This document shows positions 12,342 through 13,589 of a stretch of DNA of 22,058 bases, in pieces. The stretch spans positions 1-22,058 of the IMG/VR virus record IMGVR_UViG_3300021964_005484, one strand, 5' to 3'. Position 1 is the stretch's first letter. Every line of letters starts with the position of its first letter. The translations under genes and the position numbers were made by a program. The notes beneath the pieces were generated by a model. It was given only the letters and a program-made list of their open reading frames with translations, did not search any database and was not told where the DNA came from. The stretch comes from a virus.

Positions 12342-12513
12342 CAGACACCTCCACCCATTCAATGTTTTTTATTTCGTGATCTTCTAAGTCAATATTATGT
12401 TCTTCTTGAAAGGACTGTTTTACCCATTCAATATATTCTTCTTTCGTTTCACACTCTCTACCCATATCAAATACAGAATAAGTAATAGTGCTAGTAAATG
12501 ATTTAAGAGCCAT
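12334..12513 (-). CDS. Hypothetical protein, 59 aa
   Basis: A 59-residue frame in an otherwise unexplained 150-base space. AAGGAGG is placed ahead of its ATG, which overlaps the stop of the first operon gene as TAATG. It begins MALKSFTSTITYSVFDMG and continues as an acidic helix (CETKEEYIEWVKQSFQEEH), so an alpha/beta fold is plausible. No motif is recognised. Its stop overlaps the start of the 73-aa gene by 8 bases. The strong ribosome site and couplings on both sides support it. Confidence 0.7.
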   Translation of the reverse strand: MALKSFTSTITYSVFDMGRECETKEEYIEWVKQSFQEEHNIDLEDHEIKNIEWVEVSDE

Positions 12514-12749
12514 TATTCCACACCTCCTTTCCTTGAATTGTTTAGATAGTCTGTTTGACTGATTCGTCCCAGACGCATTAGCTCCTTATCAAAGCAGACT
12601 GCTTTTTTAAGATCACTAAAGGTTGCAAAGCCCAACTCTTTTTGAGTTGTAACCTGTTGATTTTCGATACTATTAAGCCTACTAATAAGTTCTTTATGTC
12701 TCTTATTAGCTAACTTATTAGCTTTCTTCTTATTAGCTTCTTTATTCAT
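12513..12749 (-). CDS. First gene of leftward arm, 78-aa basic helical protein
   Basis: A 78-residue protein with a Lys/Asn/Ala-rich leader (MNKEANKKKANKLANKRHKE), followed by helical segments and a QTDYLNNSRKGGVE tail. The leader could form a basic helix that binds nucleic acid. AAAAGGAG lies seven bases ahead of the ATG. It is the promoter-proximal gene of the whole minus arm, so it should be among the first proteins made. Its ribosome site and start codon are complementary, with a 3-base bulge, to a segment of the + strand small RNA at 13459-13472. No family is recognised. Confidence 0.75.
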   Translation of the reverse strand: MNKEANKKKANKLANKRHKELISRLNSIENQQVTTQKELGFATFSDLKKAVCFDKELMRLGRISQTDYLNNSRKGGVE

Positions 12750-12795: not shown

Positions 12796-12824
12796 TAGTT
12801 ACTCAACAGGTACCACCCTGTCAA
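12796..12824 (-). promoter_or_regulatory. Early promoter of leftward arm
   Basis: A perfect -35 TTGACA lies at 12819-12824 (minus strand), with a weak -10 TAACTA at 12796-12801, 17 bases away. Transcription would begin near 12789, giving a leader of about 40 bases that holds a small hairpin (GAAGC/GCTTC arms) before the ribosome site of the first gene. This is the only promoter-like site found upstream of the arm. The poor -10 suggests help from an activator, or that the true -10 differs. Confidence 0.5.
12806..12821. promoter_or_regulatory. Possible operator in early promoter
   Basis: The inverted repeat ACAGG-N6-CCTGT overlaps the -35 box and spacer of the leftward early promoter, where a bound protein would block the polymerase. 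No repressor gene is visible in the window. The arms are only five bases, so chance is a fair alternative. Confidence 0.35.
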
Positions 12825-12875: not shown

Positions 12876-12901
12876 AAAGAAAAAGCCCTCCGAAGAGGGC
12901 T
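12876..12901 (-). terminator. Rho-independent terminator of RNA A
   Basis: On the minus strand, AGCCCTC and GAGGGCT form a 7-bp stem closed by a TTCG tetraloop, followed by TTTTTC. The tetraloop with GC-rich stem and T-run is a textbook intrinsic terminator. It faces leftward, and the only thing upstream on that strand is non-coding, which implies an RNA gene ending here. Confidence 0.9.
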
Positions 12902-13196
12902 ATACTCATACAAAAATAAGGTTGATAGTTTTTTGGTTACGAAGCAACTATCTAGCTCCTCCAACAGCACCCTTAACCATTCGGTTTTATAGTCCCTGTT
13001 AAGACTGTCCTTCTCTTCTTTAGTTCCACGACTGTTGCAACAATCATTGTGAAACTGCCAATAGTTCCTCAGACTTTGTAGTGTTATAGGCGATGGGTTC
13101 TAGCACTTATCCTAAACTTCATCTTACGACCTACTTCGTCACCCTGTAAACAGTTCAGACTTCTGGATTTTATAGTAAGCTCATCTTACTCTACAA
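12880..13196 (-). ncRNA. Structured non-coding RNA of about 320 nt (RNA A)
   Basis: No protein frame of note exists here, yet the stretch has a promoter, a terminator and raised GC (76 of 180 bases by hand over 12961-13140, about 42%, against 11 of 60 in 13441-13500). Several stems are visible on the minus strand. AGTAAG/CTTACT lies near the 5' end, and AGTTTCAC/GTGGAACT (one wobble) encloses GATTGT/ACAGTC. ACAG plus CTTAAC pairs with GTTAAG plus CTGT, GATAGTT/AACTATC encloses GTTGC/GTAAC, and the terminator hairpin closes the 3' end. It does not look like tmRNA, RNase P or 6S RNA as I know them, and no tag frame is evident. The 5' end is uncertain by about 10 bases. Confidence 0.72.
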
Positions 13197-13201
13197 TATT
13201 T

Positions 13202-13231
13202 ACTTTAACACTAGCAATATTTAAATGTCAA
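13202..13231 (-). promoter_or_regulatory. Promoter of RNA A
   Basis: The -35 TTGACA (13226-13231, minus strand) is followed after 18 bases by TAAAGT (13202-13207). An alternative -10 of the extended type, TGCTAGTGT, lies slightly upstream and shares the string ATTGCTAG with the neighbouring promoter of RNA B. The predicted start is about 13195, or about 13205 if the alternative -10 is used. Confidence 0.6.
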
Positions 13232-13244
13232 TAGTTTTTTAAAC

Positions 13245-13287
13245 TTTTTTAAAAAGGCTCAGCACTTAACTCCATCATGCCGAGCCT
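13245..13287 (-). terminator. Rho-independent terminator of RNA B
   Basis: On the minus strand, AGGCTCGGCA (13278-13287) pairs with TGCTGAGCCT (13255-13264) as a 10-bp stem with one G-T pair and a 13-base loop, followed by a TTTTT run (continuing as A-rich then T-rich). It faces leftward and sits just upstream of the promoter of RNA A, so it separates two minus-strand RNA units. Confidence 0.85.
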
Positions 13288-13325
13288 ACAACGTCTTACA
13301 TTCTTAATACACTCATTAAAATGTA
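13248..13325 (-). ncRNA. Two-hairpin small RNA of about 80 nt (RNA B)
   Basis: Between a good promoter and a terminator on the minus strand lie about 78 bases with no protein frame. The 5' part folds as TACATTTTAAT against ATTAAGAATGTA, 11 pairs with a single bulged base and the 6-base loop GAGTGT. A short linker (AGACGTTG) leads into the 10-bp terminator hairpin, whose 13-base loop contains TGATGGAGTTAAG. A GTTAAG..TGCTG string in this loop and descending arm also occurs in RNA A. This is the layout of a typical bacterial sRNA; targets are unknown. Confidence 0.72.
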
Positions 13326-13368: not shown

Positions 13369-13396
13369 TTGACATTATCGCTATCTATACTAATAT
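13369..13396 (+). promoter_or_regulatory. Promoter of RNA C
   Basis: A perfect -35 TTGACA (13369-13374), a 16-base spacer and TAATAT (13391-13396), pointing right. The predicted start is near 13403. It is divergent from the promoter of RNA B, and one regulator bound between them could control both. Confidence 0.65.
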
Positions 13397-13402
13397 TATC
13401 TT

Positions 13403-13513
13403 TGTAAGTTATTCTAAACTTGCAATCTATGAATATTTATTTTCATTAATATTTATTTTTCATAGCTCCTTTGTAAGCCTCTAATTTATTAATTTATTTT
13501 AGAGGCTTTTTTT
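13403..13513 (+). ncRNA. Small RNA of about 110 nt, or leader with terminator (RNA C)
   Basis: Promoter and terminator enclose about 110 very AT-rich bases without a protein frame. Visible structure: AAGTT/AACTT near the 5' end, CTATGAA (13427-13433) pairing with TTCATAG (13459-13465) around a near-exact direct repeat of AATATTTATTTTCAT, and the terminator stem. The stretch at 13459-13472 reads as the complement of a ribosome site plus start codon, and matches that of the first leftward gene. It may be a free sRNA, or an attenuating leader of the rightward gene at 13590, for which no separate promoter is clear. Confidence 0.6.
13475..13513 (+). terminator. Rho-independent terminator of RNA C
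   Basis: AAGCCTCTAA (13475-13484) and TTAGAGGCTT (13499-13508) form a perfect 10-bp stem with a 14-base AT loop, followed by a 7-base T-run. It points right and stands 76 bases before the first rightward gene. Read in the other direction there is no strong T-run, so it is a + strand terminator. Confidence 0.88.
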
Positions 13514-13589
13514 ATTATAAAAATTATTTGCTTTTTTATTTTATTTAGATTAGGCTTTACTTATTCATTAATAAAAGGAGTTATAAAAG

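Follow-up and report, generated by a model that had tools for sequence, protein, structure and literature searches.

The IMES and Ocean-V RNAs are structured noncoding RNAs, known chiefly from environmental or phage DNA, for which no function has been established. The put RNA of phage HK022 consists of stem-loops in the early region; it modifies RNA polymerase and brings about processive antitermination in cis, with indifference to the gene downstream. Type III antitoxin RNAs (ToxI) are tandem pseudoknot repeats located upstream of a ToxN-like gene. GOLLD and ROOL are likewise presented as structured noncoding RNAs of environmental and phage DNA without an established function (PMC12286853). 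Ocean-V has been listed as marine only (PMC2864571).

The window, which is the whole stretch of 22,058 nt analyzed here, belongs to a marine tailed phage. Its terminase is ~63% identical to those of the Pelagibacter phages HTVC115P and HTVC103P, and the HMO-2011 group is more distant kin. A preliminary description of the window had put forward a structured RNA gene that is conserved in phages, and this proposal was upheld by the discovery of homologues and by covariation in domain D1, in the subfamily to which the window's D1 belongs, and in the pseudoknot of domain D2. It is almost certain that the structured RNA family is real and is read on the strand first proposed. The best reading of the sequences is that it is a new family of marine tailed phages, absent from Rfam and from isolated phages.

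A search of Rfam 15 at gathering thresholds gave no matches in the window or in 10 loci with well-scoring members. In a permissive search of the window region nothing was significant at E up to 10, and the matches lay far below the gathering scores. No Rfam family for tmRNA, RNase P or 6S RNA matches, as the preliminary description had stated, and ARAGORN found no tmRNA or tRNA in the window. The families put forward there for comparison (IMES, GOLLD and ROOL) were compared through Rfam and none matches. A literature search of partial coverage found no description of the RNA family.

The RNA unit in the window

The transcript is expected to be ~320 nt long, with the order D1, middle module M, D2 and terminator (12877..13196, minus strand), as judged from the promoter, the first stem, the terminator and the homologues. 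Gene directions on either side confirm its placement between divergent arms: the replication arm runs leftward from ~12.75 kb and the packaging arm rightward from ~13.59 kb. The stretch had been said to have no protein frame; the RNA strand indeed contains no ORF of ≥40 aa, and the opposite strand has one 44-aa ORF. The contrast in GC content was correct for the ~18% of 13441-13500, but the 42% given for the RNA was slightly high, the value being ~39% over 13196-12907.

A sigma-70-like promoter (13202..13231, minus strand) precedes the RNA and has the same arrangement in the near relative L001. It reads leftward, as first described. TTGACA at 13231-13226 is separated by an 18-nt spacer from TAAAGT, which ends at 13202 and has a TG in front of it. 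In a test that required the -10 to lie 4-10 nt before the first stem of the RNA, this promoter beats 300/300 dinucleotide shuffles of the 60 nt upstream of the RNA. The likely start site is 13196, the 5' nucleotide of stem P1. The UUCG-type leftward terminator was also found as described; it is an intrinsic terminator (12877..12901, minus strand) with the hairpin AGCCCTC-TTCG-GAGGGCT at 12901-12884 plus a T-run (z -3.2). Another leftward intrinsic terminator (13250..13287, minus strand), also present in L001, is an 11-bp hairpin (-18.0 kcal/mol, z -4.7) followed by TTTTT. Since it lies just upstream of the promoter, the RNA unit is insulated on both sides. A pairing of D2 GGAGGAGCU with the terminator arm AGCCCUC, which would be antiterminating, is possible by eye; comparison gives it no support.

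Folding energy gave no signal for the whole RNA (321 nt, z -0.53), as 29/100 shuffles fold equally well, and the MFE z-scores of D1, M and D2 were also uninformative. Therefore, the stems visible to the preliminary description are no evidence by themselves, including the wobble-containing stem AGTTTCAC/GTGGAACT, which was found and is part of M. The support for a structured RNA comes instead from homologues and covariation.

Other elements surround the unit. The leftward early operon opens with a 78-aa ORF (12513..12749, minus strand) that has no PHROG match. A second leftward -35, TTGACA (12819..12824, minus strand), with a weak -10, lies 3' of the RNA terminator and is also found in L001; it is possibly a separate promoter of the early operon. 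The dyad CAGG-N6-CCTG overlaps this TTGACA within 12806-12824 (minus strand), in the gap that separates the RNA terminator from the first early ORF. It does so in L001 too, and could make this a regulated promoter with an operator. Farther upstream, a promoter (TTGAAT-17-TAGAAT with TG, 13359-13331) precedes 13250-13324 (minus strand), which ends at the 11-bp terminator and is conserved in L001; it possibly encodes a second short leftward RNA of ~75 nt. A rightward promoter with TTGACA at 13369 is followed ~110 nt on by a strong terminator hairpin AGCCTCTAA..TTAGAGGCT plus T7 (z -5.1), so that 13369-13515 (plus strand) may be a short rightward RNA ahead of the packaging arm.

Homologues, modules and their exchange

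The starting loci were fetched from IMG/VR around the primase-helicase, a neighboring gene and the terminase, and in these loci blastn and nhmmer showed two segments of the RNA to be conserved between otherwise differing phages. Three pattern scans of IMG/VR (both ends of part 1, and part 2) returned 109 to 117 contigs each; among 77 inspected matches to the part-2 pattern, 63 looked genuine and 14 did not. The relatives in IMG/VR amount to ~90 distinct D1 and ~50 distinct D2 sequences, some from near-identical phages. These counts are lower bounds that lean to the canonical type, because the alignments were anchored on patterns from the first homologues. About 100 viral fragments from the ocean, unrelated phages among them, keep the folded shape.

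Domain D1 (13076..13196, minus strand) was defined by the covariance model R1 and by covariation. On the minus strand it has a closing stem P1 (13196-13191 with 13081-13076), stem P1b (13185-13182 with 13095-13092) and stem P3 (13179-13175 with 13127-13123), together with a variable hairpin P2 and a conserved purine-rich internal loop, AAAAGUAAAUGAGAACUAAACC, which is nearly invariant in canonical members. In an alignment of 25 distinct canonical members, covariation backs P1, P1b, P3 and the basal part of P2, with 93.6% of cells paired and both-side changes in 9/20 pairs; 0/500 shuffles were as good, in controls that, like those for the subfamily and D2, ignore phylogeny, and slid structures were far worse. 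P1 ranges in sequence from GUAGUUAG/CUAACUAC to AGCUUUAUAG/CUAUAAAGCU. Its own arms pair at 8.5/10 positions, and arms exchanged in 2000 permutations reach at most 7.8. The 2-bp variants of P1b include GU/AC, AU/AU, AA/UU and GC/GC. G-U pairs outnumber A-C mismatches 47 to 15, which points to the originally named strand as the transcribed one.

R1, which was built without the window sequence, scores 21.0 bits on the window (E 2.6e-4 in a search of 901 nt and E 0.006 in one of the whole record) and gave 96 matches at E ≤0.1 in 95 loci. The window's D1 falls in a divergent subfamily shared with L001, L104, L184 and others. This subfamily (11 sequences) also passes the covariation test, as in GAU/AUC in the window versus GAC/GUC in L001.

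Domain D2 (12921..13009, minus strand) was recognized by blastn and nhmmer matches to L032, L107, L151 and L096 and by covariation. It consists of a hairpin AGUC/GACU followed by a pseudoknot in which GGUUA/UAACC crosses GAUAGUU/AACUAUC, with an AAAA loop. Covariation in 42 distinct sequences supports the first hairpin and two crossing stems; the latter make up an H-type pseudoknot whose loop is A-rich. No sequence breaks the pseudoknot stem (100% paired), and 4/5 of its pairs show both-side changes. The covariance model R2 scores 78.5 bits on the window, which is in its training set. In other RNAs of the set, A-rich H-type pseudoknots of other sequence follow D1 in 21/38 regions, where shuffles give an expectation of 8.5. 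The invariant D2 segment GUUGGAGGAG (~12960 in the window) includes a strong Shine-Dalgarno-like stretch, which no conserved start codon follows. A role as a CsrA sponge was considered and rejected, as GGA motifs are just moderately enriched (7 versus 5.0 in the window, up to ~twofold elsewhere).

The middle module M (13007..13072, minus strand) directly follows D1 and is a hairpin GUUUCAC..GUGGAAC within a GUC..GAC stem. Four distant phages have its 36-nt core: L351, L396 and L405 match it exactly, and L414 differs by two substitutions that compensate each other. L001, otherwise close to the window, lacks M through a clean deletion. The D1 of L104 is 98% identical to that of the window over 114 nt; its flanks are unrelated and its TerL is 75% identical. 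Together, the pattern of identity and loss of M and the L104 D1 in unrelated flanks suggest that modules have been gained, lost and exchanged as units, and horizontal exchange between phages appears to have occurred. The proposal of a structured RNA gene was right about structure, with the refinement that the gene is a chain of apparently exchangeable modules and not one fixed fold.

R1 found exactly one D1 match in 13 of 20 long records and none in seven, and R2 found at most one strong D2 match per searched record. D1 is present in phages whose terminase is of the window's type, and also in near-50-kb records that have no such terminase. Four D1-bearing records (G002, G003, G006, G015) have neither the window-type terminase nor the window-type DNA polymerase (PolA), the terminase of G002 being phrog_38. 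Two others (G005 and G012), also without the window's terminase, have just a distant window-type DNA polymerase. Therefore, the RNA is common to several phage lineages. A blastn search with the RNAs of the window and its relatives against 50,697 isolate phages gave no genuine match, and the isolates HTVC115P, HTVC103P, HTVC033P and HMO-2011 have no convincing copy. A scan of bacterial genomes gave six exact 19-mer matches, none with a convincing D1; they were therefore taken as chance.

Genomic setting and mode of action

The RNA lies between genes and points the same way as the early genes (58 scored as +/+; other calls look like spurious ORFs). The genes 3' of the RNA differ among phages, and its neighbors include a primase, an SSB-like gene and many small ORFs. 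A riboswitch or cis-regulatory leader would be expected beside one particular gene family or pathway throughout; the neighboring genes show no such constancy. An RBS and start codon lie ≤60 nt 3' of D2 in 48/62 copies, but not in the window, L425 or L309, and the 3' pseudoknot ends a median of ~30 nt ahead of the start codon. A strict terminator occurs within 300 nt in just 2/82 canonical D1 copies. A promoter at P1 is better than shuffles in 11/43 upstream regions, or about a quarter; such promoters include consensus-like and non-homologous ones (TTGACA-17-TATATT in L015 and L344, TGCTATAAT in L309 and L170). Units of promoter, RNA and terminator were found in the window, L425 and L309, and L001 is terminator-closed too. 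The claim that the RNA has its own promoter and terminator is therefore true of the window, whereas most relatives appear to be co-transcribed with the next gene and have no terminator of their own. Directly 5' of the D1 promoter, L107 (9080-9210, reverse strand) and loci like it carry clustered TGTTACA/TGTAACA or TGTCACA/TGACACA repeats that look like operator arrays.

The preferred reading, held with about even confidence, is that of a new stand-alone structured phage RNA acting in trans. The RNA would begin at the 5' nucleotide of P1, fold D1, an optional hairpin M and the 3' pseudoknot D2, and end at an intrinsic terminator. It would be transcribed early in infection and would act as a free RNA in trans. 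The conserved D1 loop would capture a host factor (a protein or ribonucleoprotein), and the pseudoknot modules may make additional contacts or shield the 3' side. Trans action is favored by the terminated units in at least three settings, the variable neighbors, the low copy number and the occurrence in unrelated phages. The horizontal exchange of modules and the indifference to neighboring genes fit a target in the host and not an adjacent phage gene. Against trans action, an RBS and start codon after most D2 copies, along with rare terminators, form the layout of a 5' leader, and just 11/43 regions have a P1 promoter better than shuffles.

The RNA might instead be a cis-acting 5' leader of an early transcript, affecting stability, translation or put-like processive antitermination. 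This is possible but less probable, and it stays the main rival because most phages appear to co-transcribe the RNA with the gene that follows. A leader would suit an RNA that is always co-directional with neighboring genes, has promoters sited so that transcription begins at P1, places its 3' pseudoknot a median of ~30 nt before a start codon and, in the window, precedes the early operon. However, the downstream genes are not conserved, and no searched record has more than one copy of the RNA, which often lies within the operon and not at its head. It also argues against a leader that the RNA of the window, L425 and L309 is followed by a strong terminator and that more -35 or promoter-like sequences come before the next gene.

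It is doubtful that the RNA is an exchangeable set of decoys, in which the D1 anchor would take a common host factor and the swapped pseudoknots would neutralize different host RNA-binding or defense proteins; such a role would explain the swapping of modules among unrelated phages. A DNA-level element, such as a replication origin or a recombination or packaging site with inverted repeats acting in DNA, is very unlikely. The presence of at most one intergenic copy per searched record, often near replication genes, agrees with such an element, but the tolerance of G-U above A-C mismatches holds for just one strand, the stems agree with the promoters and terminators, and the crossing pseudoknot pairings covary. 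An unannotated small protein gene, or an ordinary spacer with chance hairpins, is scarcely credible despite an MFE not below that of shuffles, given a strand without an ORF of 40 aa, P2 length changes that are not multiples of three, and strong covariation and homology across distant phages.

An unrecognized structured RNA is apparently common to abundant marine phages; it crosses phage lineages and combines strictly conserved loops with compensatory change in the stems. If confirmed, it would rank with the more widespread noncoding RNAs of phages and would help to show how abundant marine phages take over hard-to-culture hosts. With the covariance models and motif patterns, metatranscriptomes can be searched for it directly.

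Comparison with described RNAs

The closest company of this RNA is GOLLD, ROOL, IMES and Ocean-V, which are likewise orphan structured RNAs from phages or metagenomes. It differs from GOLLD and ROOL in being smaller and in being made of modules common to several phages. Like HK022 put, it is a stem-loop RNA of the phage early region that would not depend on downstream genes; unlike put, it is longer, contains pseudoknots, occurs at most once per record and is followed by a terminator in the window. It shares short H-type pseudoknots with A-rich loops, such as ACAGUUGCUAGACCUGUAAAACUAGC in L354, with ToxI and other H-type pseudoknot RNAs. In contrast to ToxI, its modules differ in sequence and are not tandem repeat copies, and D1 has no counterpart there. 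The marine and cyanobacterial glnA and Downstream-peptide riboswitches resemble it in their 5'-UTR-like place, seen in many relatives, and in a conserved loop held in variable covarying stems, but the phage RNA has no Rfam match and no consistent downstream gene or pathway. Its modular, exchangeable and pseudoknot-rich build sets it apart from the orphan phage and metagenome RNAs.
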